NCBI RefSeq assembly: GCF_023218075.1
Contig: NZ_JALPTB010000011.1
Span: forward strand, 1 to 64,000
Reading direction: 5' to 3'
Length of the DNA: 64,000 bases
From: Rhodococcus sp. HM1
GTDB lineage: Bacteria > Actinomycetota > Actinomycetes > Mycobacteriales > Mycobacteriaceae
This document shows, piece by piece, positions 12,541 through 53,155 of this stretch; position 1 is the first letter of the stretch; every line of letters begins with the position of its first letter. The notes under the pieces are model-generated. The model was given only the letters and a program-made list of their open reading frames with translations. It did not search any database and was not told the DNA's origin. Both the position numbers and the translations under genes were made by a program.

Positions 12541-13716
12541 ATGCGGATCCTGCACACCTCCGACTGGCACATCGGCCGCACCTTCCACGGTGTGGACCTG
12601 CTGGGAGACCAGGCGCGCGCCCTGACCGCGATCGCCGAACTGGTCGCCGAGCGCAGCGTCGACGTCGTGGTCGTGCCCGGCGACGTGTACGACCGGTCGA
12701 TCCCCAGCTCCGACGCGGTAGCGGTGTGCAACGCCGGGTTGGAGGCGATCCACGAGGCGGGCGCGGTCATCGTCGCGACCTCCGGCAACCACGACTCGCC
12801 GGTGCGGCTCGGTGCCGGCGCCGCGTTCGCCGCCAAGGGGGGACTGCACCTGATCACCAAGGTCGCCGACGTGGACCGCCCGGTGATCGTCGACGACGAG
12901 CACGGTCCGGTCGCGTTCTACGGCATCCCCTATCTCGAGCCGGAGATCACCCGAGCCGAACTGGGCGTGCCCAAGGCCCGCTCCCACCAGGAGATCCTCG
13001 ACGCCGCGATGGGCCGGGTCCGCGCCGACGCCGAGATCCGCGGCGGCCGGACGGTGCTGCTCGCGCACGCGTTCGTCGTCGGGGCGGAGGCGACCGGTTC
13101 GGAACGGTCCATCTCGGTCGGCGGTGTCGAAACCGTGTCCGCGTCCGCGTTCGACGGCATGGACTATGTCGCCCTCGGGCACCTTCACTCCCCGCAGACC
13201 GTCGCCGAGCACGTCCGTTACTCCGGGTCACCGCTGCCGTACTCCTTCGGCGAACGCAGTCACCGCAAGGCGGTGTGGCTCGTCGACCTCGACGCGACCG
13301 GCGTGGCGTCGGTCGAACGGGTCGAGCTCCCCGTCGTGCGGGGCCTGAGCCAGCTGTCCGGAACACTCGAGGATCTGCTCGCCGATCCCGAGCACGCCGC
13401 TGCAGAGGACCACTACGTCGCGGCCGAGCTGACCGACGCGGTTCGGCCGCTCGATGCGATGCGACGGCTGCAGACCCGGTTCCCGCACGCGGTGCACGTC
13501 GTCTGGAACCGCCCCGACACGACGTCGGGAACCAGCTACCGGGAGAAGGTGCACGGCCGCAGCAACCTCGACGTCGCGTGCGCGTTCCTGACGGACGTGC
13601 GGTCGGAGCCGTCGCAGCGGGACGCCCGCTGGATCGAACAGGCGCTGCGCGAGGCCGACCGCGTAGGCGCGGACAAGATCGCGGCCGCCGACGAGGTCGT
13701 GGAGGTGTCGGCGTGA
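12541..13716 (+). CDS. sbcD: Exonuclease SbcCD subunit D
   Basis: A 391-residue Mre11-type phosphoesterase. Metal-ligand motifs are complete and in order: 'SDWHIGR' (D-x-H), 'PGDVYDR' (GD), 'TSGNHDSP' (GNHD), 'LLAHAFV' and 'LGHLHSPQ' (GHxH). With SbcC it cuts DNA hairpins and blocked ends. The start ATG 12541 gives MRILHTSDWH, as in the family. The stop overlaps the sbcC start in GTGA. Confidence 0.96.
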   Translation: MRILHTSDWHIGRTFHGVDLLGDQARALTAIAELVAERSVDVVVVPGDVYDRSIPSSDAVAVCNAGLEAIHEAGAVIVATSGNHDSPVRLGAGAAFAAKGGLHLITKVADVDRPVIVDDEHGPVAFYGIPYLEPEITRAELGVPKARSHQEILDAAMGRVRADAEIRGGRTVLLAHAFVVGAEATGSERSISVGGVETVSASAFDGMDYVALGHLHSPQTVAEHVRYSGSPLPYSFGERSHRKAVWLVDLDATGVASVERVELPVVRGLSQLSGTLEDLLADPEHAAAEDHYVAAELTDAVRPLDAMRRLQTRFPHAVHVVWNRPDTTSGTSYREKVHGRSNLDVACAFLTDVRSEPSQRDARWIEQALREADRVGADKIAAADEVVEVSA

Positions 13717-16691
13717 GGCTGCACGCACTCGAGGTCACCGCGTTCGGGCCGTTCGCGGACACGGTCCGGGTCGACTTCGACGAACTCGGCGCCGACGGGC
13801 TGTTCCTGCTGCACGGCCGCACCGGAGCGGGCAAGACCTCGATCCTCGACGCGGTCGCGTTCGCGCTGTACGGGACGGTGCCGGGTGCGCGCGCCGAGGG
13901 GCGCCGGCTGGTGTCCGATCACGCCGCCGCCGGTGCCGTCCCGAAGGTGATGCTCGAGGCCACCATCGCCGGCCGACGCCTGCGGATCGTGCGCAGCCCC
14001 GAATACGAACGCCCGAAGCTGCGCGGCACCGGCACGACCAAGGAGAAGGCGAAGGCGACGCTGACCTGGCTGGACGGGTCGGGGCAGAACCTGTCGCGGC
14101 ACGAGGACATCGGCGAGGTGATCGGGGCACTGCTCGGCATGAGCGCGGCTCAGTTCTTCCAGGTCGTCCTGCTGCCCCAGGGGGAGTTCGCGAAGTTCCT
14201 CCGGGCCGACAGCAAGGAACGCGGCGCGCTGCTCGAGCGGCTGTTCGACACGACGCTCTTCGGCGGTGTCGAGAAATGGTTCCGCGAGCGGGCCGCTGCC
14301 GGTGCGAAGAAGCTCGCCGAACAGCAGAAGAAGGTCGACGTGCTCAGCGCGAAGGTCGACGCGGCGGCCGGGATCGAGGCCGGTGCCGACGCCGACCCGG
14401 TCGGGTGGGCGCGCAAGCTGCGCGAGGACGCCGTCGACACCCGGGACAGCATGATCGTCGCGCTGGACACCGCCCGCGACGCGGAGCGCAGCGCCCGCGC
14501 GGAACTCGAGGAGGCGGTCGCGCTGGCCCGTCGCCTGGAGCGCCGCGCCGCCGCACAGTCCGAACTCGCGGCCCTCGACGCCACTGCGGACGAGCGGGCC
14601 GCGCTGGCCGCCGAGAGGGCGGCCGCGCTGCGGGCGGCGCCGGTCGCGGTGACCGGTGAGGAATCCCGCCGCGCCGCGTCGACCGCCGCGGCGGCGTTGC
14701 AGGCGGCGGCCGATGCACTCGCCGCGCTGTCCGGCGACGACGACGGTCGCGCGCTGCTCGACGAACTGCCCGAACAGCCCGAGGACGGCGACCGCGATCG
14801 GATCCGCGGGCACGAGCAGCGGTGGTCCGCGGAGGTCGTGCGGCTCGACGATCTCATCGCGCAGCAGCGTCGCGTCGCGACCCTCGACGACGAACGGTCC
14901 CGGCTGGACGAGCGTCGTCGCACGCTCGCCGCCGACATCGAACAACTCACCGCGCAGCGGGATGCGTTGCCCGTGCGCCGCGACGAGGCTGCCGCCGCCG
15001 TCCGCGCCGCGGAACAGGCCGCGGCCGCACTGCCGGGTCTCGCCGCAACCCGCGACCGCGCCGCCGATGCGGTCGCCGCAGCGGACGAACTTGCTTCGCG
15101 CAGAACCGAACTCGACAAGCGTGAGCAGCGCGTCGTGGAGCTGCGTGCGGCGCATCTCGACGCCCGGGCCGTCCTGCTCGACGTGCGGGAACGGCGAATC
15201 GCCGGTATGGCAGCCGAATTGGCGGCCGAACTCGTCGACGGGCAGGAATGTGCCGTCTGCGGATCCACCGAGCATCCCGCGCCGGCGCGGCCCGCACCGG
15301 ACACTGTCACCAAGGCCGACGAGGACGCGGCCCGCGAGGCCGAGCAGCGCGCCGAGGCGGCACTCGCCCGGGCAATCGCTGCCGTCGCCGAGGCGGCCGA
15401 AGTCGTTGCGGCGCTGCGCCAGCGGTGCGGCGAGCGGCCGCTCGACGACCTCGTCGCCGAACGTGACGCCGCCAGGTCGGCCCACGACGCGGCGGCCACG
15501 GAGGCCGGGGAACTCGATCGGCGTCGCACGCAGGTCGACACCCTGGAACGGCTCGACGCGGAACTGCAGGAGCGGCTGCGCGGCACGGAGGCCGAGGTCG
15601 CGGAGATCGCGCAGGCCGACGCGGTCGCCGCTGCCGAAGCCGACGAGATCCGGGCTCGCATCCACGCCGCGGTCGGGGACGGGGGTTCGCTCGTGGACCG
15701 CCGCGCGCGGCTGGCGGCCCTCGCGGCCGCGGCCACCGAACTGCTCGACCGGCGAGCGGCCGCCGTCCGGGCCCGGACCTTCGCCGACGAGCGGGCCCGC
15801 GACGCCGAGCAAGCCGCCGTCGACGCCGGATTCCACGACCTGGACGCGGCACTGGCCGCCGTGCGATCCGACGCGCGTCTGGCCGAGATCGACGCACTCG
15901 TCCGCGCCGCCGAGGAAGCCCGCGCGGTCGCGGCCGCCACGCTCGCCGAACCCGAGCTCGCGGCGCTCATCGGAGACGAGACGGCCGACGTCGCGGCGCG
16001 GCAGGACGCCGCGAACCGCGCCGCCGCCGAACTGCACGCGGCGCTCACCGCTGCCTCGGAGGCCGATCGGCGGCTCACCGACATCGACAAGTACACGACC
16101 CGGCTCGAGCAGGAGGATGCGAAGCTCGCGCCCCTGCGGGCCGAGCAGAACGAACTGGCCGGACTCGCGGATGTGATCGCAGGTGGCGGGCAGAACTCGC
16201 GGAAGATGTCGCTGCGGTCGTATGTGCTCGCGGCGCGACTCGAGGAGGTCGCCGAGGCGGCGTCCGAGCGGCTGCGTCGAATGTCCGGTGGACGCTACGA
16301 ATTCGTGCACTCCGACGCCGCAGGCAGCCACGGCAAACGAGGCGGTCTGGGTCTGGACATCCACGACGAGTACACCGGGATGGTCCGGTCCACGAAGACC
16401 CTGTCGGGTGGTGAGTCGTTCCAGGCGTCGCTCGCGTTGGCGCTCGGGTTGGCCGACGTCGTCGCCGCCGAATCCGGGGGGCTCGTGCTCGACACCATGT
16501 TCATCGACGAGGGGTTCGGCACGCTCGACGCCGACGCCCTCGACTCGGTGATGGGTGTGCTCGACGAACTGCGTGCCGGTGGCCGCGTCGTCGGGGTGGT
16601 CAGCCACGTCGACGAGATGCGGCAGCGCATCCCGAGCAGGCTGCACGTCGTCCGGGGCCGGGCCGGCTCGACGGTCGAGATCGCGAGCTGA
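13713..16691 (+). CDS. sbcC: Exonuclease SbcCD subunit C, Rad50-like SMC ATPase
   Basis: A 992-residue protein starting at GTG 13713. Walker A 'GRTGAGKT' (35-42) and the Q-loop region 'QVVLLPQGEFAKFLRA' precede a long Ala/Glu/Arg coiled coil. The zinc hook C513-A-V-C516 lies at its middle, and the C-terminal head has the ABC signature 'LSGGES' (897-902) and Walker B 'TMFIDEGFG' (about 930). The protein dimerises through the hook, tethers DNA and gates the SbcD nuclease. It is coupled to sbcD by the 4-base overlap. Confidence 0.97.
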   Translation: MRLHALEVTAFGPFADTVRVDFDELGADGLFLLHGRTGAGKTSILDAVAFALYGTVPGARAEGRRLVSDHAAAGAVPKVMLEATIAGRRLRIVRSPEYERPKLRGTGTTKEKAKATLTWLDGSGQNLSRHEDIGEVIGALLGMSAAQFFQVVLLPQGEFAKFLRADSKERGALLERLFDTTLFGGVEKWFRERAAAGAKKLAEQQKKVDVLSAKVDAAAGIEAGADADPVGWARKLREDAVDTRDSMIVALDTARDAERSARAELEEAVALARRLERRAAAQSELAALDATADERAALAAERAAALRAAPVAVTGEESRRAASTAAAALQAAADALAALSGDDDGRALLDELPEQPEDGDRDRIRGHEQRWSAEVVRLDDLIAQQRRVATLDDERSRLDERRRTLAADIEQLTAQRDALPVRRDEAAAAVRAAEQAAAALPGLAATRDRAADAVAAADELASRRTELDKREQRVVELRAAHLDARAVLLDVRERRIAGMAAELAAELVDGQECAVCGSTEHPAPARPAPDTVTKADEDAAREAEQRAEAALARAIAAVAEAAEVVAALRQRCGERPLDDLVAERDAARSAHDAAATEAGELDRRRTQVDTLERLDAELQERLRGTEAEVAEIAQADAVAAAEADEIRARIHAAVGDGGSLVDRRARLAALAAAATELLDRRAAAVRARTFADERARDAEQAAVDAGFHDLDAALAAVRSDARLAEIDALVRAAEEARAVAAATLAEPELAALIGDETADVAARQDAANRAAAELHAALTAASEADRRLTDIDKYTTRLEQEDAKLAPLRAEQNELAGLADVIAGGGQNSRKMSLRSYVLAARLEEVAEAASERLRRMSGGRYEFVHSDAAGSHGKRGGLGLDIHDEYTGMVRSTKTLSGGESFQASLALALGLADVVAAESGGLVLDTMFIDEGFGTLDADALDSVMGVLDELRAGGRVVGVVSHVDEMRQRIPSRLHVVRGRAGSTVEIAS

Positions 16692-33374: not shown

Positions 33375-35294
33375 ATGGACAGACTGATCAACATCGACAA
33401 TGGCGGTACCCTCACCGACATCTGCGCGTGGGACGGCCACGACTTCAGCTTCACCAAGACCCTCACCACCCCGTTCGACCTGTCGCAGTGCCTGTTCGAC
33501 GGTCTCACCAAAGTGTCGCGGGAGATCTACGGCACGGAGAATCTGCCCGAGCTGCTGCACTCGACCGCACACATCCGCTACTCGACAACGCAGGGTACGA
33601 ACGCGCTCGTGGAGCGGAAGGGTCCGAGTGTCGGCATCCTCACCGACTCGGCCGGCACGGTGGACGAGCTCAGGCGCACCCCCGAGCAGCGCGCGCTGTT
33701 CGACGACCTCGTCGGCAGCCGCGTCGCGGTGATCGACAGCGCCGCCGACGACCTCGACAGCGAACTGGTCGCCAAGGTCAACCGGCTCATCACCGACGGC
33801 GCGGCCCGCATCGTCGTCGCGGTCGGTGACACCAACGACGGCCGCGAACGCGAGATCCGCAGGGTCCTGCTGCGCAAGTTCCCGCGCCACCTGCTCGGGT
33901 CGGTGCCGTTCCTGTACTCGTGGGACTTCAGCACCGATCGCACCGCGTCCCGGCGCATCTGGTCGGCCGTGATCAACACCTTCCTGCACCCGACGATCGA
34001 ACGGTTCCTGTACAACACCGAGCATCGTCTGCGCGACCATCGCGTCCGCAACCCACTGCTGATCTACCGCAACGACGGGGCCTCGTCGCGCGTAGCGAAA
34101 TCGGTTGCGCTCAAGACCTACTCGTCGGGACCGCGAGGCGGCTTGGAAGGCACCCGGGCGCTGGCCGAAGTCTACGGCCTCAAGCACGTCCTCATGATCG
34201 ACGTCGGCGGCACGACCACCGACATCGGCACGGTCACCGGCGGCGAGATCCTCACGGACCGAAGAGGTTCCATCGCCGGGATCCCCATCTCCTTCCCGAT
34301 GTCCAACGTCGAGTCCGCAGGCATCGGCGGCAGCTCCGTCATCGCCGTCACCGACGGTGTCATCACGGTCGGCCCCGAGAGCGTCGGCGCAGCACCGGGA
34401 CCGGCCTGCTTCGGTTTCGGTGGTACCGCCGCCACCATCACCGACGTCAATCTGCTGCTCGGGGTACTCGATCCGTCCACCTACCTCGACGGCGGCTTCA
34501 CCCTCGATGCGGACCGGGCCCGCGCGGTCGTCCGCGAGACCGTCGCCGAGCCGCTCGGCCTCACCCTCGACGAGGCGCTGATCGCGATGGAGCAGGCCTA
34601 CTTCACAGCCATGGGGAGTGCCATCGCCCCGGCAGTCCAGGATGCCGACGAGACCACGATCGCCGCGTTCGGCGGTGCCGGTCCGATGAGTGCGTGTGGT
34701 GCTGCCCGGGATGCCGGTGTCCGCACCGTCCTGATCCCCAAGCTCGCCGCCGTCTTCTCGGCGTTCGGGATCGGATTCTCCGACATCGGGCAGAGCTACG
34801 AGACCGACCTCGTGGACACGAGCGACGCGACACTCGCCGATGCCACCGCCGACCTGCTCGCCAAGGCCGAACGCGACATGTTCCAGGAGGGTCATTCCCT
34901 CGACGAGTGCACTCTGTCGTGGACGGTTGCCTCGGAGGACGAGCACGGCGTCACCGTCGACGAAACCCCCTACCGGCCCGGCGAGCCGGTGGAACTCGTG
35001 GCCGGTGCCTCCAGCGCGCTGACCCTCGTCGTCACGCGCCGAATGAATCGAATCGCCCTGCCCGACAGCTCGTTCGCCGAACCCTGCGACCCGCAGGCGA
35101 CCGGTGTCCGCACCGTGCTCGGTGCCGCGGGACGCGCCGAGGTGCCGGTGTACACGCTCACCGAGCAGCAGCCGGGTGCGACCGCCGAGGGACCTGCCAT
35201 CGTCGAAGGCCCCTTCTTCACCGCCCGGGTGCAGGACGGCTGGACTTTCCACGTCACCGCCGGCGGCGACCTGCTGCTCACCGACACCCACTGA
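33375..35294 (+). CDS. Ketone carboxylase subunit A, hydantoinase A/acetone carboxylase beta-like
   Basis: A 639-residue (about 68 kDa) ASKHA-fold ATPase subunit. The first phosphate loop 'NIDNGGTLTDICAWDG' is at the N terminus, 'RYSTTQGTNALVERKG' follows, and the second loop 'IDVGGTTTDIGTVTGG' is near 280. The C-terminal oxoprolinase-type domain includes 'AFGGAGPMSACGAARDAG'. This group phosphorylates a carbonyl or amide oxygen. Size and first position match ApcA (70 kDa) of acetophenone carboxylase. ATG 33375 is preferred: it is preceded by 'gagga' and the upstream open frame covers regulatory DNA. Confidence 0.85.
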   Translation: MDRLINIDNGGTLTDICAWDGHDFSFTKTLTTPFDLSQCLFDGLTKVSREIYGTENLPELLHSTAHIRYSTTQGTNALVERKGPSVGILTDSAGTVDELRRTPEQRALFDDLVGSRVAVIDSAADDLDSELVAKVNRLITDGAARIVVAVGDTNDGREREIRRVLLRKFPRHLLGSVPFLYSWDFSTDRTASRRIWSAVINTFLHPTIERFLYNTEHRLRDHRVRNPLLIYRNDGASSRVAKSVALKTYSSGPRGGLEGTRALAEVYGLKHVLMIDVGGTTTDIGTVTGGEILTDRRGSIAGIPISFPMSNVESAGIGGSSVIAVTDGVITVGPESVGAAPGPACFGFGGTAATITDVNLLLGVLDPSTYLDGGFTLDADRARAVVRETVAEPLGLTLDEALIAMEQAYFTAMGSAIAPAVQDADETTIAAFGGAGPMSACGAARDAGVRTVLIPKLAAVFSAFGIGFSDIGQSYETDLVDTSDATLADATADLLAKAERDMFQEGHSLDECTLSWTVASEDEHGVTVDETPYRPGEPVELVAGASSALTLVVTRRMNRIALPDSSFAEPCDPQATGVRTVLGAAGRAEVPVYTLTEQQPGATAEGPAIVEGPFFTARVQDGWTFHVTAGGDLLLTDTH

Positions 35295-35340
35295 CCGACA
35301 GGCGCGACGCCTGCTCCCACCGCTTCGAAGGATGCACGAC

Positions 35341-35760
35341 ATGCGAATTCCCATGACCGAATACCTGGTCATCGATCTCGACACCGAACTGTGGCTGTGC
35401 CGGGTGTGCCAACACGAATTCGGCAGCGCCCGTGGCAATTACAAGGAAGGGACCCTCGTCTACGACCGCGATCCGCGCGAGATCCATCAGCCGATCATCG
35501 ACCCGGACCGCTACGAGTTCACATTCTCACCGGACCCGAACTACTGCCGGATCCTCGAGTACTACTGCCCGGGTTGCGGAACCCAGATCGAGACCGAGTA
35601 CGTCCCGCCGGGCCATCCGCCGACCGTCGACATGGAGTGGGACATCGACGCCCTGCGTGCCCAGTGGCTCGAACGCGGCACCGATCCGGAAGAGGTCATC
35701 ACCTACGGACCGGGGCAGGACGCCGAAGGCGAGTTCGAAGGCCGCCGCCACCAGCACTGA
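35341..35760 (+). CDS. Ketone carboxylase small zinc subunit, acetone carboxylase gamma-like
   Basis: A 139-residue (about 16 kDa) protein of the acetone carboxylase gamma family. Cysteine pairs 'CRVCQHEF' and 'YYCPGCGTQIE' form a predicted zinc ribbon, with 'NYKEGTLVYDRDPREIH' between, a family hallmark. In acetophenone carboxylase ApcB (15 kDa) plays this part in the core complex. ATG 35341 is 46 bases after subunit A. A second in-frame ATG at 35353 is possible. Confidence 0.87.
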   Translation: MRIPMTEYLVIDLDTELWLCRVCQHEFGSARGNYKEGTLVYDRDPREIHQPIIDPDRYEFTFSPDPNYCRILEYYCPGCGTQIETEYVPPGHPPTVDMEWDIDALRAQWLERGTDPEEVITYGPGQDAEGEFEGRRHQH

Positions 35761-35789
35761 ACATCTTCGACCGCAAGGAATCCGATACC

Positions 35790-37916
35790 ATGAAACGCAT
35801 CTCCGTCGACATCGGCGGCACCTTCACCGACTGCTTCTTCGCCTGGGACGACAAGTACGTCGAGGCCAAGGCCCTCACCACCCACCACAACCTCGCGCAG
35901 GGCTTCAACGAGGCCCTCGACCTTGCCTGCCGACGGGCCAACCTCGACCGCGACGACGTGCTGTCCCAGGTGGATTCGGTACGGTACGCCACCACTCTCG
36001 GTACCAATGCGCTCATCGAGCGCAAGGGGCCCCGCGTCGGTGCCATCGTCACCCACGGCTTCGAGGACACCATCCCGCTCTCGCGCGGCCGTGGCTACGG
36101 TGAGGGTCTGGACCCGTCGATGCAGCAGAATCTGCCCGCTGCCGAGCGTCCCGAACCACTGGTGCACCGCAGCCTGATCCGCTCGGTGAAGGAGCGCGTC
36201 AACTCCGCCGGCAAAATCGTCATCCCGCTCGTCGAACAGAACGTACGAGAGATGGTGCGCGAACTCGTCGACGCCGGCGTCCAGGCGCTGGTGGTGTCGC
36301 TGGTCAACTCGACCGAGAATCCGGCGCACGAGCTGCGGATCATGGAGATCATCCAGGAGGAGTACCCCGAGCATCAGCTCGGCGCCATCCCGGTGCTGCT
36401 CGGCCACCAGGTGTCCGGCCGCAAGGGTGAGTACGTGCGGGCCACCTCCACCATCGTCGACGGCTTCCTGCACGACATCATGTTCCACGCGATGAGCCAG
36501 CTGGCGAACAACCTGCGCGATTCCGGCTACGACAAGCCGATGCTCATCATCCACAACTCCGGCGGCATGGCACAGATGAACTCGACCGATGCGCTGCAGA
36601 CCATCCACTCGGGACCTGTCGCGGGAGTCAGTGCCGCAGAGCATCTTTCGGAGTCCTCGGGCATCGGCAACATCATCACCACCGACATGGGTGGCACCTC
36701 CTTCGACATCGGCCTGGTGCCCGCAGGTGGGGTCAAGCACTACGACTTCCAACCCACCATCGACCGGTGGCTGGTCTCGGTACCGATGATTCACCTCGAA
36801 ACCCTCGGCGCCGGAGGCGGTTCCATCGCCAGCTACGACCGCATCCACCAGTCCGTGCGGCTCGGACCCGAGTCCGCGGGATCGGACCCCGGCCCGGCGT
36901 GCTACGACCGCGGCGGACTGCGCCCGACGGTGACCGACGCCGATCTGCTGCTCGGCTACCTCGACCCCGACAACTACGCTAACGGTTTCATCAAGCTCAA
37001 CCCCAGGCGCGCGGTGTTCGCCATCGAGGAAAACCTCTGTGACGAACTGGATCTCGACGTCATCGACGTGGCCAAGGTCATCAAGAGTTCCGTCGACGAG
37101 CAGATGGCGATCGGCATCGCCAAGGAACTGCGGGTGCGCGGTTACCTGCCCGAGGACTTCACGATGCTCGCCTACGGCGGCAACGGCCCGCTGCACGCGT
37201 GCGGCATCGCCGACCACGCCGGTATCCGCCGGATCCTCGCGCCGCCGTTCTCGTCGGTGTTCTCCGCGTGCGGCGCCGGCAACATGAAGCAGCTGCACAT
37301 CCACGAACGGGGCGTGCACGTGGTGCTCTACAACGCAACCACGCGAGCACTCTACGACCGTTACGAGGAGTTCAACGACATCGTGGCTGCCCTGGAAGCG
37401 AAGGGTGCGGAGGATCTGCGTCGGCAGGGCATCACCGACGACGTGATCGAGCATCGCCTCGAAATGGACCTGCGGTACGGCAACCAGCTGGTGACGACCG
37501 CGGTGTCCTTCGACATCAACCGGATTCACGGGGTCGGGGACGTCCTGCACCTGATCCGCACCTTCTCCGACATCTACTCGCAACGGTACGGGGAGGGGTC
37601 GGCCGCACCCGAGGCGGGGATCCGTGTGCAGACCATCCGTGTCGCGTCGTACGTCAACGGCGACACGGTGGAATTCGACTCGCTGCATCATGGCGGGGAA
37701 CGAACGCTGCCTGTCCCGATCGGACATCGGGACGCGCACTTCGTCGGGCACCCGCGGGCGATCAGCACCGCGGTCTACGACGCGAAGGCCCTCGATGCCC
37801 GGCATGTGATCCCCGGCCCGGCGATCGTCACCACCGAGAACACGACCTATCTCGTCGAGCCGGGCTGGCGCCTCGAACCCTCCCCGCAGGGCGCCGTCTG
37901 GTTCCTCAAGGACTAG
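35790..37916 (+). CDS. Ketone carboxylase subunit C, second hydantoinase A-like ATPase
   Basis: A 708-residue (about 78 kDa) HyuA/oxoprolinase-type subunit. Phosphate loops 'SVDIGGTFTDCFFAWDD' at the N terminus and 'TDMGGTSFDIGLVPAG' near 300 are intact, with 'RYATTLGTNALIERKG', 'SGPVAGVSAAEH' and 'AYGGNGPLHACGIADHAGI'. It is a diverged paralogue of the gene at 33375; having two HyuA-like subunits plus a gamma separates this complex from simple three-subunit acetone carboxylase. ATG 35790 lies 29 bases after the small subunit, with 'gcaaggaa' upstream. Confidence 0.88.
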   Translation: MKRISVDIGGTFTDCFFAWDDKYVEAKALTTHHNLAQGFNEALDLACRRANLDRDDVLSQVDSVRYATTLGTNALIERKGPRVGAIVTHGFEDTIPLSRGRGYGEGLDPSMQQNLPAAERPEPLVHRSLIRSVKERVNSAGKIVIPLVEQNVREMVRELVDAGVQALVVSLVNSTENPAHELRIMEIIQEEYPEHQLGAIPVLLGHQVSGRKGEYVRATSTIVDGFLHDIMFHAMSQLANNLRDSGYDKPMLIIHNSGGMAQMNSTDALQTIHSGPVAGVSAAEHLSESSGIGNIITTDMGGTSFDIGLVPAGGVKHYDFQPTIDRWLVSVPMIHLETLGAGGGSIASYDRIHQSVRLGPESAGSDPGPACYDRGGLRPTVTDADLLLGYLDPDNYANGFIKLNPRRAVFAIEENLCDELDLDVIDVAKVIKSSVDEQMAIGIAKELRVRGYLPEDFTMLAYGGNGPLHACGIADHAGIRRILAPPFSSVFSACGAGNMKQLHIHERGVHVVLYNATTRALYDRYEEFNDIVAALEAKGAEDLRRQGITDDVIEHRLEMDLRYGNQLVTTAVSFDINRIHGVGDVLHLIRTFSDIYSQRYGEGSAAPEAGIRVQTIRVASYVNGDTVEFDSLHHGGERTLPVPIGHRDAHFVGHPRAISTAVYDAKALDARHVIPGPAIVTTENTTYLVEPGWRLEPSPQGAVWFLKD

Positions 37917-37941
37917 CGCAGAAACACCAGGAGACAATGTC

Positions 37942-40263
37942 ATGACCGCAGTGCACGACGACCTCGCCAACGCCGCCGCCGAACGCCTCGCGTCGCTCGA
38001 CGAGCAGGAACAGCAATGGGTCGACGAATTCATGGACGAGACCACGCTGTTCCTCGGCCCCGATCGGGAGATCATGCGTTCGCACCACATCGCCTCGCGC
38101 AGCGAGCTCGAGGAGGAATGCATCGCCAAGGGCATCGATCCGCTCGAGGTGGATCGCATCCGTAAACGCCTGGCCGGCGCCCTCGACGAGGGCTTCGAGA
38201 TGTGCGAGGCGATGGGTGCGGCTCCCGGCGCCAAATGGGGTGACCTCACCACCGCTATCTACACCGCCGCCGGCGATGTGACCTACCTGTCCTGCCACGG
38301 CGTGATCGCGTTCTCCGCGATCCTGCACCACCCGATCCGGTACATCATGAAGTACTGGAAGGACGAGCCGACCGTAGGCATCCACCCGGGCGACGGCTTC
38401 ATCCACAACGACGCCCGCTTCGGCAACGTCCACAACACCGACCAGTCGATGATCATGCCGATCATCCGTGACGACCGGATCATCGCGTGGATCGCGGCCA
38501 CCATCCACGAGGGCGAGAACGGCGCGTGCGAGCCCGGCGGCATGCCCTCCGGCTCGGAGACGCCCTTCGACGACGGCCTGCGGATGAGCCCGTTCAAGAT
38601 CGTCGAACGGGGCGAGCTGCGCCGCGACCTGCTCACCTTCCTGCAGCACTCGGTGCGCGACCCGAAGCTGCAGCTCGCCGATCTGAAGGTGAAGATCGGT
38701 GCGGTGCAACGTATCCAGGAACGAGTTGACGCGATCATCGACGAGGTCGGAGTGGAAACCTTCGTCGCTGCACTGCGCATCACCGTCGAGGACGTCGAGG
38801 CCGAGGTGCGCCGCCGGATCCGCGAGCTGCCCGACGGCACCGTCCGGTTCAACCAGTTCATGGACTCGACGCTCAAGGAGAACATCCTCATCAAGCTCGC
38901 CTGTGCGATCACCGTCAAGGGCGACAAGATGACGATCGATCTGCGCGGGAGCGGACCCGAGATTCTCAACCGGGCCATCAATTCGCCGCTGTGCTCGGTC
39001 AAGTCGATGATGATGCAGGCCATCCTCGCGTTCTGGTGGCCGGATCTGCCGCGCTGCACGTCGGCGATGAGTCCGATCGAGATCATCTCCGATGAGCACA
39101 CCTGGTCCGACGCCGGCTACGACGCCCCGATGGGCCAATCCCTGCAGGCCTCGTTCCGCGGGTTCTCGGCGTTGCAGAACCCCTGGGCGAAGCTGCAGTT
39201 CTCCAACCCGGAGAAGTTCTCCAACGTCATCGCCCCGTGGTTCAACCAGATCAACACCTTCCTGTGGGGCGGGGTCACCCAGCACGGTGATCAGGTCGGG
39301 AATCTGTGCGCCGACCTCAACGGCATGGGCGGCGGCGCGAAGGCGTTCCGCGACGGCGAGGACGCCGTATCGCCCCTGTTCTGCGCGATGGCCGACACCG
39401 CCGAACAGGAGGTCATGGAGGAGGAGGTGCCCTTCATGCAGCTGGTGAGCAAGCGGATCGTCCGCGACAATCAGGGCTTCGGCAAGTATCGCGGTGGCAT
39501 GGGCTACGAGATGATCGTGGCGGCGGAAGGCACCCCGCTGTGGGGCTTCATGACCGTCACCTCGGGTGCGAAGTTCTCGTCCATCACCGGGCAGTTCGGT
39601 GGCTACGGCTGCAACACCTATCCGCTCGCGATGGTCAAGGGCGTCAACGTCTACGACGAACTGCGGCGCAACCCGGAACGTTTCGACCTGTCCATCGAGA
39701 AGGTGATGAACGAGCAGCCGTTCGAAGGCGCCGAGTACACCACCAGCCACATGGGCCTGCAGTTCGACGTCGCCAAGGACGGTGAGCTGTACATGATTTC
39801 GCAGGGCACCGGCGGCGGCTACGGAGACCCGCTCGAACGAGCCCCCGAGGACGTGGTCGCGGATCTCGAGATCGACCGCATCTCACCGAAGGTCGCGCAC
39901 GACATCTACGGCGTCGTGTACGAGCCGGAGACGTTCGTCGTCGACACCGAAGCCACCGACGAACTGCGTGCGTCGATGCGCCGAGCCCGGATCGCCCGCG
40001 GCGTTCCCTACGCGCAGTTCGTCGAGCAGTTCGTCACCCCCGAACCTCCGAAGGACCTCCTCTACTACGGGTCCTGGGGTGACACCGAGGAACTGACCGC
40101 CACCCACTTCACCGTCAACGGTGCACAGCGGGTCACCACGACGATCGACAAGATGCCGATCATCATGATGCCCGACCGACGCGAATTGAAGATCGCCGAG
40201 CTGACCGCGCGGGTGAAGGAACTCGAGGCCAAGCACGGTGAGGTGGTCCACCGCAAGTCCTGA
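37942..40263 (+). CDS. Ketone carboxylase subunit D, hydantoinase B/acetone carboxylase alpha-like
   Basis: A 773-residue (about 86 kDa) HyuB-type subunit that would carboxylate the activated ketone. Family segments include 'HPGDGFIHNDARFGNVHNTD', 'WIAATIHEGENGACEPGGMP', and the glycine-rich 'GGMGYEMIVAAEGTPLWGF' and 'GTGGGYGDPLERAPEDVV' regions. ATG 37942 follows 'caggaga' with 25 bases between genes. The closest functional analogues are AcxB and the HyuB-like Apc subunit. The metal ligands are not assigned here. Confidence 0.88.
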   Translation: MTAVHDDLANAAAERLASLDEQEQQWVDEFMDETTLFLGPDREIMRSHHIASRSELEEECIAKGIDPLEVDRIRKRLAGALDEGFEMCEAMGAAPGAKWGDLTTAIYTAAGDVTYLSCHGVIAFSAILHHPIRYIMKYWKDEPTVGIHPGDGFIHNDARFGNVHNTDQSMIMPIIRDDRIIAWIAATIHEGENGACEPGGMPSGSETPFDDGLRMSPFKIVERGELRRDLLTFLQHSVRDPKLQLADLKVKIGAVQRIQERVDAIIDEVGVETFVAALRITVEDVEAEVRRRIRELPDGTVRFNQFMDSTLKENILIKLACAITVKGDKMTIDLRGSGPEILNRAINSPLCSVKSMMMQAILAFWWPDLPRCTSAMSPIEIISDEHTWSDAGYDAPMGQSLQASFRGFSALQNPWAKLQFSNPEKFSNVIAPWFNQINTFLWGGVTQHGDQVGNLCADLNGMGGGAKAFRDGEDAVSPLFCAMADTAEQEVMEEEVPFMQLVSKRIVRDNQGFGKYRGGMGYEMIVAAEGTPLWGFMTVTSGAKFSSITGQFGGYGCNTYPLAMVKGVNVYDELRRNPERFDLSIEKVMNEQPFEGAEYTTSHMGLQFDVAKDGELYMISQGTGGGYGDPLERAPEDVVADLEIDRISPKVAHDIYGVVYEPETFVVDTEATDELRASMRRARIARGVPYAQFVEQFVTPEPPKDLLYYGSWGDTEELTATHFTVNGAQRVTTTIDKMPIIMMPDRRELKIAELTARVKELEAKHGEVVHRKS

Positions 40264-40284
40264 CCACCGTCCGCCCCGTCCACC

Positions 40285-40315
40285 GGGTGCCCGCACGACG
40301 TGCGTGCGGGCACCC
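40285..40315 (+). promoter_or_regulatory. 13-base perfect intercistronic hairpin
   Basis: 'gggtgcccgcacg' pairs perfectly with its complement across the loop 'acgtg'. It sits between subunit D and the fifth gene. It would reduce read-through or stabilise the upstream message, giving lower output of the fifth gene. Confidence 0.7.
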
Positions 40316-40336
40316 CTTCACCCCCCGGAGACCACG

Positions 40337-41149
40337 ATGACCACTTCGAAGCCCGAGTTCCTCGCTGCACCGGCCTCGGGGCGCCGCACCCCCTTGATCA
40401 TCGACCATCTCGACTACAGTCAGCGGGTCCTGTTGCGCGGCAATCCGATTCCCTGGGGCGACCCGACCGCGCTGTCGAACCTGTTCAACCAGGCACACGG
40501 GCTGCTGCGCCCGGACGCCACGCTGCTCGACCTCGGTGCCTACTATCGGATCCTCGCCGAGGACCCCCGCCTGCAGGATGCGATGACCGCACGGTCGCGT
40601 CCCGGATACGCGCTGCGCACCCTGCTCGGAGACGCGGAGGCCGGCCGGGCCGCGGTGACGCTGGTTGCCACCGTGGCCGGCACGACACGGCTGCCGCTCG
40701 TCCTGCAGATCCCGTCCCCGCGTGCGTGGCTGGCACAGACACACCCCGGAACGACGGACGATCTCGACGCCGACCGGGTGGAGAACGCGGCGATGTACGT
40801 GGCCGACTGGCTGCGCGGGTTCGCCGACGTGCCCGTCGCGGCGGTCCTGCTCGACGAGCGCGCGGCCGGAGATGTGCCTGCAGTACCCCCCGAGGCCTAT
40901 GCGCCGATCGGCAACGTCGCCGTGCACTACCGATGGGAGCTAGGGCTGCGTGACCAGCGAAGCGTGTCGTTCGGTGAAGGCGACGGGGATGTGCTCGGCG
41001 ACGACTTCTGGCTCGGCGACCGCGCCGCCGTGCCCGCGGAGACCGGGGCGTTCCGGCTCGCCCGGCTCCCCGAGGGTGCGGTGCCGGAAACAGTGCTGGC
41101 CCGGCTGGCCGACCTGGACCGAGAGAGCGTTCGCTCGGGGGCGAACTGA
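40337..41149 (+). CDS. Fifth gene of ketone carboxylase operon, ApcE-like by position
   Basis: A 270-residue (about 29 kDa) soluble protein with no recognised domain. Visible features are an N-terminal 'PLIIDHLDYSQRVLLRGNPI', a helical middle ('SRPGYALRTLLGD', 'RVENAAMYVADWLRGFAD') and a C terminus rich in acidic loops. Acetophenone carboxylase needs a fifth subunit, ApcE (34 kDa), that associates loosely; this gene has the same place and a similar size. Sequence relation to ApcE could not be tested. ATG 40337 follows 'cggagacc'. Confidence 0.6.
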   Translation: MTTSKPEFLAAPASGRRTPLIIDHLDYSQRVLLRGNPIPWGDPTALSNLFNQAHGLLRPDATLLDLGAYYRILAEDPRLQDAMTARSRPGYALRTLLGDAEAGRAAVTLVATVAGTTRLPLVLQIPSPRAWLAQTHPGTTDDLDADRVENAAMYVADWLRGFADVPVAAVLLDERAAGDVPAVPPEAYAPIGNVAVHYRWELGLRDQRSVSFGEGDGDVLGDDFWLGDRAAVPAETGAFRLARLPEGAVPETVLARLADLDRESVRSGAN

Positions 41150-48048: not shown

Positions 48049-49806
48049 ATGCGGCTCACGAACGTCGCGCACCTGCGCCTTCCCTTCGGTCGGCTGCTCG
48101 GCTACGACGTGACAGCCGGACAGCCGGGCCGACCCCTGCCCGTCTCCTTCGACCAGGGACGCCACGTCGGTGCGGGCGACCGTGCCGGATCCTGGATGGC
48201 CTTGTCCTTCAGGCTCTCCGAGCCGGTGTCACCCGACGATCTCGCGACCGCGTGGCTGGCGGTGATCGCGCGGCACGGCACGTTGCGGTCGGTCTTCGTG
48301 CCCGGAGACGACGGTGAGCCGAAGTTGTACGAGGTCGAAATCACACCCGGCCGGTGGGTCGAGCACTCGATCGCGCCCGGCCAGGCGGTCAACGATGCCC
48401 TGCGGGACGTGCTCGACCGCGCGTGCTCGCCGTACACCCGTCCGTCGCACCGGCTGTGCATGCTCGAGACAGCGGACGGACCGACGGTGGTGATCGCCGC
48501 CGACCACTCGCACGTCGACATGTGGTCGATGCTGGTGCTCGCCCGCGACCTGCTCGCCGCACTCGCAGCGGTCCACGAGGGCCGTGAACCGGCATTGCCG
48601 ACGGCACCGGCGTTCGCCGAGCACACCAGCGCGCTTCGCGACCGCCCGACCGCACCCGACGACGTACGCCGCCGCTGGGCCGAGGTCCTCGCGGCCAGTG
48701 GCGACGTGATGCCGCGGTTCCCGCTGCCGCTGGGCGAGGAGACGCTGCATCGCGAACGCGTGGAGGTGCGCGACGTGCTCGACGTCGACGACAGCGCTGC
48801 CTTCGGGGCGCAGGCCAAAGACGACGGCGTCTCGACCCTCGCCCTGGTGGTGGCGGCGATGACCGACGTGACCCTCGAGCTGGCCGGCTCTCCGTTGCGG
48901 GCGGTGTTCCCGGTGCACAGCCGGTACGACGCCACGTGGCACGACTCCGTCGGCTGGTTCATCACCAATTCGGTGCTGGAATCGGCCGTCCCCGAGCCCC
49001 GCGCCGCCGCGGAGGCGGTCAAGGAAGCGGTGGGGATGGGGTCTTGGCCCCTCGAGGACGTGCTGCGTCCGTGGGGTGGGATGCCCGAGGCGCCGGGGAT
49101 GTTCGCGATCTCGTGGCTGGATCTGCGCCGGTTACCGGTCCGGGTCGACGCGACCGGGCTGGAGGCGCAGTACGTCGGCGCGACGATCCGCACCGACGGC
49201 GTGATGCTGTGGTTCATCCTCGACGAGTCCGGCTTGCACCTGCGCTGCCGCTACCCCGACACCTCCGAGGCCCGGCTGAATGTCGGCAATTGGCTGGACA
49301 CGCTCATCGCCCGCTTGCGGTCACGAGCGCGGGAATCGGTCGGGGGACGGCTGAGTGTCGGCGACCGGACGTACCGGGTGACGCGCGCCGCCCGCGTGGA
49401 CGTGCCGGCGCTGGTCGCGCTCCTGTCCGGCGACACCGGCCGTGAAGGCGCCGAGATCGCGCGGTACGAGGAGGCGTACGACGCGGTGACCCGGGACTCC
49501 GCGCACTACCTGGCCGCGGTGCGCGACGAGGACGATCGGATCGTCGGCACCATGCAGCTCTCCATCGTTCCGGGGCTTTCCCGCGGCGGTGTCACGCGGA
49601 TGCAGATCGAAGGGGTCAGAGTGGCGCCGTCCGAACGTTCCCGGGGTGTCGGCACCGCGATGCTCGAGTGGGCGCACGGGCACGGCCGACAGCGTGGGGC
49701 GTCGCTCGCTCAGGTCACCGCGGACCGGGTCTGCGAGCGGGTCTGTACGTTCTTCGCGCGGCTCGGTTACGACAGCACTCACGTCGGGCTGACGCGGGAA
49801 CTGTAG
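48049..49806 (+). CDS. Condensation-domain-like acyltransferase fused to GNAT acetyltransferase
   Basis: A 585-residue two-domain protein. The first ~430 residues resemble the condensation/PapA acyltransferase superfamily: 'AADHSHVDMWSML' holds H153-x3-D157 (the HHxxxDG site with first His and last Gly changed), and 'DSVGWFITNSV' is the floor-loop-like motif. The last ~150 residues are a GNAT domain with the acetyl-CoA loop 'RSRGVGTAMLEWA' (about 528-540). It could acylate an amine and then acetylate it, but no peptide-synthetase genes are nearby. Confidence 0.78.
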   Translation: MRLTNVAHLRLPFGRLLGYDVTAGQPGRPLPVSFDQGRHVGAGDRAGSWMALSFRLSEPVSPDDLATAWLAVIARHGTLRSVFVPGDDGEPKLYEVEITPGRWVEHSIAPGQAVNDALRDVLDRACSPYTRPSHRLCMLETADGPTVVIAADHSHVDMWSMLVLARDLLAALAAVHEGREPALPTAPAFAEHTSALRDRPTAPDDVRRRWAEVLAASGDVMPRFPLPLGEETLHRERVEVRDVLDVDDSAAFGAQAKDDGVSTLALVVAAMTDVTLELAGSPLRAVFPVHSRYDATWHDSVGWFITNSVLESAVPEPRAAAEAVKEAVGMGSWPLEDVLRPWGGMPEAPGMFAISWLDLRRLPVRVDATGLEAQYVGATIRTDGVMLWFILDESGLHLRCRYPDTSEARLNVGNWLDTLIARLRSRARESVGGRLSVGDRTYRVTRAARVDVPALVALLSGDTGREGAEIARYEEAYDAVTRDSAHYLAAVRDEDDRIVGTMQLSIVPGLSRGGVTRMQIEGVRVAPSERSRGVGTAMLEWAHGHGRQRGASLAQVTADRVCERVCTFFARLGYDSTHVGLTREL

Positions 49807-52855: not shown

Positions 52856-53155
52856 GTTCAGGGCGTCGACGAGCCGGTCGTTGTGCACGTGCCGGGCGCA
52901 GACCACACGCGTCTTGCCGGACGCTCGGGTGATCGGGCTGGTCCCGGCGTAGTTCTTCCGTGCCTTCGCACCGACGTAACGACCGGGGGCGTCCCCGAAC
53001 TCGGTGAGCACCCGGGCACCGAGAACGACCCCGAGACCGGGCTGGCCGAGCAGGATCTCAGCGTCCGGGTGCCGGCCGAAATGAGTGGCCGCGCACTTCT
53101 CGAGGTTCGCGATCTCGCTGTTCAACGTGGCCGAGGTGGCGTACACCTCTCGCAC
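52856..53155 (-). mobile_element. IS110-family transposase remnant
   Basis: On the minus strand about 100 residues match the C-terminal transposase_20 part of IS110 elements, including 'HPDAEILLGQPGLGVVLGAR', 'VGAKARKNYAGTSPITRASG' and 'HVHNDRLVDALN'. Homology starts near 'VREVYATSATLNSEIANLE' and stops at 'DALN', so both the N-terminal DEDD domain and the extreme C terminus are gone. There is no start codon in a sensible place. It is a scar, not an active element. IS110 elements lack terminal inverted repeats, and none is seen. Confidence 0.85.

Follow-up and report, generated by a model that had tools for sequence, protein, structure and literature searches.

A five-gene cluster of acetophenone-carboxylase architecture in Rhodococcus sp. 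HM1, a putative carboxylase of small aliphatic ketones

The stretch of DNA analysed here, referred to as the window, is a 64-kb part (contig NZ_JALPTB010000011.1, positions 1 to 64,000) of the genome of Rhodococcus sp. HM1, which is available as 6.93 Mb in 247 contigs. At positions 33375-41149 it carries five intact co-directional genes, termed alpha', gamma, alpha, beta and epsilon in their order, which are followed by the gene of an activator. The five genes probably encode an ATP-dependent, biotin-independent carboxylase that acts on a small aliphatic methyl ketone, with acetone or butanone as the likeliest substrate. The cluster belongs to a sister clade of acetophenone carboxylase (Apc) that has been little described, and actinobacterial clusters of this kind are known as annotations; the new and testable claim is the assignment of the clade to aliphatic ketones. 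A first-pass annotation had proposed an aryl or alkyl ketone; the clade, the residues of the ketone pocket and the genomic neighbours of the relatives point to the alkyl part of that proposal, with acetone or butanone preferred over an aryl ketone. For the clade as a whole, the balance tips slightly towards a five-subunit, two-ATPase acetone or butanone carboxylase in many aerobic actinobacteria and in gastric non-pylori Helicobacter, which would do the work of acetone carboxylase (Acx) there and for which epsilon would be obligate, though sometimes unlinked.

Pfam identified Hydantoinase_A domains in alpha' and alpha, Acetone_carb_G in gamma (138.2 bits) and Hydantoinase_B in beta. Among solved structures, the best match of each of these subunits is Apc of Aromatoleum aromaticum EbN1: 5l9w_b (Apc alpha') for alpha' (290 bits), 5l9w_C for gamma (129.9 bits, versus 37.1 for Acx), 5l9w_B for alpha (507.3 bits, versus 290.1 for Acx) and 5l9w_A for beta (289.5 bits, versus 145.7 for Acx and about 80 for hydantoinases). 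The best NCBIfam models for the first four genes are ApcA, B, C and D, all with scores below the equivalog cut-off (331.7 bits against 1250, 145.9 against 250, 537.5 against 1500 and 302.4 against 1500, respectively). ASKHA motifs are present in both ATPases, as DNGGTLTD, DVGGTTTD and GAAPGP in alpha' and as DIGGTFTD, DMGGTSFD and SDPGP in alpha. The five-gene set in ApcABCDE order, as first annotated, is upheld by the five intact genes on the forward strand and by the structure matches of the first four, and a predicted ATP-dependent ketone carboxylase of Apc architecture with its own activator gene is borne out by the sequence.

Genome contigs were scanned with an alpha alignment, which yielded 488 confirmed loci; the best 80 were kept, and 78 of those (L075-L152), varying in length with contig ends, make up the clade. 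Trees were built from 44 chosen loci, the window and the sequences of solved structures. The joint alpha/alpha' tree (91 rows) and the Acx-rooted beta tree (47 rows) were concordant, EbN1 Apc lying in a seven-row clade in each half of the tree and the window falling in a different large clade, in a 19-row sub-clade with a support of 100. The alpha and alpha' of the window lie in the respective Apc halves, and Acx and the hydantoinases branch outside the alpha/alpha' set. A mixture-model alpha tree of 36 rows repeated this picture, with the window clade apart from EbN1 Apc. The approximately unbiased (AU) test rejected a grouping that unites the window alpha clade, EbN1 Apc and the two orthologues nearest to the latter (p = 6.2e-5), the tested group having been named after the first tree was seen and long branches having been flagged by the program for hydantoinases, Acx and some intermediate rows. 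Hence, it was concluded from the trees and the AU rejection that the window enzyme, by homology, is a member of the Apc superfamily but not an orthologue of acetophenone carboxylase. The clustering with hydantoinases or oxoprolinases that had been named beforehand as a refutation was not seen for alpha and alpha' in the trees; the beta tree contained no hydantoinase row, and beta was judged by the structure matches given above.

The Apc structure paper lists features by which membership can be recognised (PMC5214803). The gene order alpha', gamma, alpha, beta and then epsilon is present, and its core was found in all 77 clade loci that hold all four genes. The R/KERiDsxG fingerprint appears in alpha as KERVNSAG at 134-141, with N replacing D, a variant seen in 39 of the 81 clade rows, and is absent from alpha'. 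The short beta of about 685 aa is not seen, since the beta of the window has 773 aa; the clade median is 776 (76 rows), versus 685 in six Apc-proper rows and 684 in ApcD. The gamma of the window has 142 aa, versus a median of 128 in the same six rows.

Residues were compared in a table from which proteins shorter than 75% of the window protein were omitted. At the proposed ketone-pocket positions of Apc alpha, all 81 clade rows carry the changes L81 to T, F281 to I, N282 to H, Q344 to H and T345 to L (T72, I272, H273, H335 and L336 in the window), whereas the six Apc-proper rows read F or Y (281), N (282), Q (344) and T or S (345). At positions 281, 282, 344 and 345, Acx has I, V, A and M. Within the clade, P285 and I333 are kept. 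For alpha', S and D stand in place of E248 and K281 of Apc, and D274 is retained. The metal-site positions of beta (D65, H123, D126 and H148 of Apc; D101, H164, D167 and H189 of the window) are kept in 78 of 78 clade rows, and the four zinc-site cysteines of gamma (C23, C26, C79 and C82) in 80 or 81 of 81. According to the structure paper, the differences between Apc and Acx may track aromatic versus aliphatic ketones (PMC5214803).

The genomic neighbours of the relatives were screened by tblastn (E 1e-15) over the 78 clade loci. Genes of 3-oxoacid CoA-transferase (A and B) were found in 36 loci, thiolase in 33, zinc alcohol dehydrogenase (ADH) in 16 and AMP-ligase in eight; of the 47 loci that are 20 kb or longer and not from Helicobacter, 20 have the CoA-transferase. 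It starts about 5-82 nt 3' of epsilon, on the same strand, in 11 loci. With respect to placement, it lies on the same strand in 15 loci downstream and 11 upstream, and on the other strand in five upstream and five downstream; these four relative arrangements suggest repeated assembly. The chance of one scoB-type gene in a 22-kb locus is about 1% (our own arithmetic, with the density from one genome, that of HM1). Outside the lineage, none of the 12 Apc-like loci, half of which are Apc-proper, has the CoA-transferase, and seven have an AMP-ligase. In locus L060, alpha', gamma, alpha, beta, epsilon, transferase A, transferase B, ADH and thiolase stand in a row, which on paper would lead from a secondary alcohol to acetyl-CoA. 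The nearest entries to this ADH are two generic ADHs, followed by isopropanol or secondary-alcohol dehydrogenases. An ADH more than 50% identical to two references occurs in 10 clade loci; in two Streptomyces loci its gene is placed between those of beta and epsilon. In the genome of HM1 itself, three scoB-type genes above the cut-off lie elsewhere than in the window. Within the 64-kb window, tblastn with the relatives' CoA ligases, CoA-transferases, thiolases and ADHs found no match (E 1e-3), so that the earlier statement that no benzoylacetate-CoA ligase is present, a difference from EbN1, where this ligase is linked, holds for the window. Two plasmid loci were also observed: in Neorhizobium petrolearium (L053:12223-21602) the five genes lie beside those for CoA-transferase A/B, RpoN, a GTP-binding protein and a sigma-54 activator, and in the archaeon Halorientalis marina (L054:1622-16178) a related cluster lies with two AMP-binding proteins and one thiolase.

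Helicobacter offers a direct comparison with Acx. The gamma gene was found in 31 of the 34 genomes searched of the Helicobacter genus group. The 30 short Helicobacter loci were sorted by similarity into 15 of the Acx type and 15 of the window type, and L231 is one further window-type locus. In the Acx type, scoA-scoB lies upstream in all four longer stretches, and a thiolase precedes it in both extended ones; in the window type, thiolase, scoA and scoB stand directly before alpha' in 10 of 10 scan loci and in two further genomes. These scoAB neighbours, a likeness to the Acx of Helicobacter, are also found in 26 of the 68 other clade loci. The thiolases and transferases of the two types are 42-63% identical. 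Replacement at one chromosomal site was considered but is not supported, as the outer flanks compared are unmatched (beyond the thiolase and transferase there was one weak match, elsewhere); hence, on comparison of the loci, the claim made is that the two clusters sit in an equivalent module. The genome paper of H. bizzozeronii CIII-1 had described such a cluster near scoAB and fadB, set it against the scoAB-fadB-acxABC genes of H. pylori and suggested that it might serve an alternative pathway (PMC3234257). In the Helicobacter genomes L231 and L232, the cluster is spread over several frames, as if decaying.

The fifth gene, epsilon, had no match in Pfam, NCBIfam or, with a single sequence, in the PDB. 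It adjoins the operon in 64 of the 78 clade loci (the other 14 being six contig ends and eight Helicobacter loci without an adjacent copy), and hence the gene is considered real. A profile search found one copy in each of the nine Helicobacter genomes searched, the genome of L142 being outside this set; in the seven of the nine whose locus has no epsilon, epsilon and gamma are on different contigs. This retention in genomes where the gene is separated from the operon argues that epsilon is needed. The epsilon alignment (A2) comprised 55 of 66 listed epsilon sequences and the window. When bridging sequences were included, the profile recovered ApcE-like proteins from two Apc-proper loci (hmmsearch in a small set, 2.3e-6 and 6.6e-6), and hhalign gave 88.8% or 76.4% with bridging sequences and 16.4 and 24.6% with narrower profiles; epsilon is probably a divergent ApcE, and a remote relative. 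One ApcE-like protein showed a weak match to URO-D (E 0.014, under the Pfam cut-off), and the epsilon profile a weak PDB match to THR2 (E 0.042).

According to the proposed mechanism, CO2 from bicarbonate would be added to acetone or butanone to give acetoacetate or the C5 3-oxoacid. By analogy with Apc, alpha would phosphorylate the enol form of the ketone at the cost of one ATP, alpha' would activate bicarbonate with a second ATP, and CO2 would be transferred in a shared cavity close to the beta metal site, with gamma as a structural zinc subunit and epsilon as a detachable partner required for turnover. The 3-oxoacid would then be activated by a 3-oxoacid CoA-transferase and cleaved by a thiolase, the genes of which lie beside the operon in many relatives and would be supplied from elsewhere in the genome of HM1.

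The activator contains GAF, AAA_lid_14 and HTH_8 domains (Pfam); its sequence has a single Walker A-like motif and lacks GAFTGA. GAFTGA is missing from 48 of 49 regulators found by similarity, and the Walker A pattern from 46; the sole GAFTGA-bearing one is that of Neorhizobium, encoded near the RpoN gene. A search for a sigma-54 gene in the genome of HM1 found none, the same search being positive in four of 14 control genomes, and a sigma-54 promoter scan of the window gave 29 matches (at most one mismatch) versus a mean of 44.08 in shuffles, hence no excess. A sigma-54 activator is not supported, given the missing GAFTGA and the lack of a sigma-54 hit in the genome. The neighbouring activator would switch the operon on without sigma-54, presumably upon sensing the ketone, whereas EbN1 has two-component systems (PMC4729919).

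Several points weigh against an aliphatic substrate for the HM1 enzyme. No CoA-transferase, thiolase or ADH genes adjoin the cluster of the window, and its substrate was therefore inferred from relatives; the two nearest of these, L075 and L077, lack such neighbours as well. The transferase is missing from 42 of the 78 clade loci, including 13 of 13 in Cryobacterium and four of four in Psychrobacter, and in the nearest sister groups it was found in only one of eight and none of four loci; AMP-ligases are carried by eight of the 78. The contrast is somewhat favoured, since the screen took its reference proteins from the loci compared (L060 and L053 for the transferase; L068, L074 and L054 for the ligases) and since L060 and L081 are one and the same record. 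The best match to the L060 ADH in the genome of HM1 is 41% identical over partial length, and is no close copy. The CoA-transferase family serves other 3-oxoacids too, and the organism may have other ketone routes, a Baeyer-Villiger monooxygenase included. Moreover, the structure paper warns that pocket residues yielded no substrate signature (PMC5214803); hence, the pocket changes are read as a difference from Apc and not as proof of an aliphatic substrate. Physiological support may come from growth data. Rhodococcus sp. BCP1 is a strain of R. aetherivorans. Growth of BCP1 on acetone, 2-butanone, 2-propanol and 2-butanol was reported (PMC4428276). Growth of ENV425 on 2-propanol and acetone has also been reported (PMC5824016).

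An aryl-ketone carboxylase, acting on acetophenone or a ring-substituted acetophenone with the product activated by an unlinked CoA ligase, is unlikely. In its favour, Apc is the closest solved structure for each of the four core subunits, and AMP-ligases accompany seven of the 12 related loci outside the clade and a few within it; against this, the alpha clade is separate from that of EbN1, the residues F/Y281, N282 and Q344 are replaced, and the neighbours of the clade are CoA-transferases rather than ligases. Gastric Helicobacter is, moreover, an unlikely home for growth on acetophenone. R. jostii RHA1 carries the cluster on plasmid pRHL2 (alpha 83.6% identical), and yet its growth on acetophenone is ascribed to a Baeyer-Villiger route: R. 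rhodochrous GD02 degrades acetophenone in this way, and RHA1, according to the same authors, has acpAB and grows on the compound (PMC9618137). This was counted in favour of the aliphatic substrate. Another ketone (a methyl ketone of C5 or longer, a cyclic one, or one derived from an ether or terpene), giving a 3-oxoacyl product for the same transferase and thiolase, is quite improbable; neither the transferase nor the thiolase family is confined to acetoacetate, and sub-lineages with no transferase neighbour (Cryobacterium, Psychrobacter, Brevibacterium) may differ in substrate, but in Helicobacter the cluster adjoins scoAB, the companions of Acx in other Helicobacter. An ATP-dependent amidohydrolase (hydantoinase, oxoprolinase or lactamase) with chance Apc-like partners is very improbable, for despite the Hydantoinase_A/B domains and the caprolactamase alpha model, second in NCBIfam for alpha (445.1 bits, cut-off 1000), gamma, alpha' and epsilon are foreign to hydantoinases (PMC5214803) and alpha and alpha' stand apart from the hydantoinase rows in the trees.

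On comparison with known systems, the putative acetone or butanone carboxylase resembles ApcABCDE of EbN1 in gene order, two ASKHA ATPases, gamma cysteines, beta metal site and the presence of a fifth protein, and differs in its separate alpha clade, the changed residues of its proposed ketone pocket, a beta that is about 90 aa longer and an epsilon that is only remotely similar. It shares with Acx (5svb, 5m45; H. pylori type) the beta length (about 776 aa), Ile at alpha 281 and the metal-site residues, with Asp replacing Glu at the first. Unlike the window cluster, Acx has one ATPase, three genes (acxABC) in another order, no alpha' or epsilon and a gamma of about 168 aa, and its alpha falls in a different branch. 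Hydantoinases and oxoprolinases are two-gene alpha-beta systems with no gamma, whereas the window has gamma, alpha' and epsilon.

The first-pass annotation had linked the architecture to denitrifying Aromatoleum and had suggested an undescribed actinobacterial route. The former is too narrow, since the 78 clade loci carry 15 family labels and are mostly actinobacterial, with Moraxellaceae, Marinobacteraceae and Helicobacteraceae besides (one label, Chroococcidiopsidaceae, looks mislabelled). The latter no longer stands, as putative acetophenone carboxylases are already in print: the same architecture was described by the respective authors for apc1-4 and fisR of R. ruber Chol-4, a putative acetophenone carboxylase by annotation (PMC6498646), for Paraconexibacter AEG42_29, annotated as acetophenone carboxylase (PMC11737030), and, by annotation, for the H. 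bizzozeronii CIII-1 cluster beside scoAB and fadB (PMC3234257). The available parts of these accounts show no substrate and name no epsilon, and the likeness is drawn here from the descriptions. The proteins of the clade are currently annotated as hydantoinases or acetophenone carboxylase. A literature search, mostly outside subscription journals, found no Apc-type cluster assigned to acetone or butanone among the matches listed. The phosphophenylethanone carboxylase HpeCBA of R. rhodochrous GD02 carboxylates an aryl ketone derivative but is biotin-dependent, with unrelated subunits (PMC9618137); carboxylases of the HpeCBA/Xcc type were set aside as biotin enzymes (PMC9618137, PMC8461187).

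If the aliphatic assignment is true, nature has two machines for the carboxylation of acetone, the first working with one ATPase and the second with two ATPases and epsilon. This would provide a natural comparison for the still-open mechanism, and the Apc architecture would not be an aryl-ketone speciality. Annotations would be corrected in Rhodococcus, Gordonia, Mycolicibacterium, Arthrobacter and gastric Helicobacter, and a biological sink would be named for a common volatile ketone. A nucleotide-dependent acetone carboxylase has reportedly been obtained from R. rhodochrous B276, for which the clade would supply candidate genes. Its subunits, reportedly of about 85, 74 and 16 kDa, would fit beta, alpha and gamma.

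The gamma gene is present in a single copy in the genome of HM1 and, with this genome included, in four of 18 genomes of the genus and 17 of 301 sampled from the family. The kept loci (best 80 of 488) include Rhodococcus zopfii, R. aetherivorans, Gordonia, Mycolicibacterium, Arthrobacter, Cryobacterium, Corynebacterium, Pseudonocardia and Brevibacterium and, outside the actinobacteria, Psychrobacter, Marinobacter, ten Helicobacter and two Zavarzinia. On a plasmid of Rhodococcus sp. BH4 (L050:11578-11969), the gamma gene is unannotated and broken into two frames, and the gene of alpha' is shortened and has a transposase gene before it. The ApcB query matched 13 places in a genome of gammaproteobacterial class (G933); several of them belong to distinct Apc-like clusters from different lineages, and by these matches the genome is rich in putative ketone carboxylase paralogues.

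The features of the locus are given in Table 1. The start codons of the five genes are our choice, 35353 being an alternative start for gamma. The gaps within the five-gene row are 37, 29, 25 and 73 nt, and the activator gene follows epsilon after 113 nt. Against R. zopfii (L075), the five genes and the regulator showed dN of 0.014-0.060 and dS of 0.15-0.21, and this low dN relative to dS indicates that the six genes are real, selected proteins. Two ABC-transporter genes (one identified by Pfam, one by eye) lie upstream on the opposite strand, and a pseudouridine synthase and a patatin-like protein downstream. Sigma-70 promoter and terminator scans of the window detected none.

Table 1. Genes of the cluster and neighbouring features in the window
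Feature	Position	Strand	Remarks
alpha' (ApcA-like), 639 aa, 67.8 kDa	33375..35294	+	second ATPase, proposed bicarbonate kinase
gamma (ApcB-like), 142 aa, 16.7 kDa	35332..35760	+	zinc-binding by cysteine motif
alpha (ApcC-like), 708 aa, 77.2 kDa	35790..37916	+	proposed ketone kinase
beta (ApcD-like), 773 aa, 86.0 kDa	37942..40263	+	potential metal site
epsilon, 270 aa, 29.0 kDa	40337..41149	+	probable divergent ApcE
activator, 603 aa	41263..43074	+	GAF domain, reduced AAA region, Fis-type helix-turn-helix
patatin-like phospholipase-domain open reading frame, 884 aa	44550-47204		long insertions with hydrophobic stretches predicted by eye

Elsewhere in the genome of HM1, locus L254 (C189:8000-24000) holds a cluster for a two-subunit soluble diiron monooxygenase (SDIMO) beside open reading frames (ORFs) that by eye are CoA-ligase-like and flavin-monooxygenase-like. 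By eye, we take this cluster to resemble toluene or alkene monooxygenase. A propane link was rejected for this genome, as the only SDIMO pair found lies in this cluster and NCBIfam named neither of its two proteins tested (1e-20). Within the window, an ORF of 1321 aa with SbcC/RAD50-like AAA and Walker B domains lies at 12726-16691, and one of 585 aa that fuses a condensation domain to a GNAT acetyltransferase domain at 48049-49806. The sole Rfam match in the window, at 52964-53045, is to RF02464, the actinobacterial sRNA Ms_AS-4 (56 bits; gathering threshold 50).

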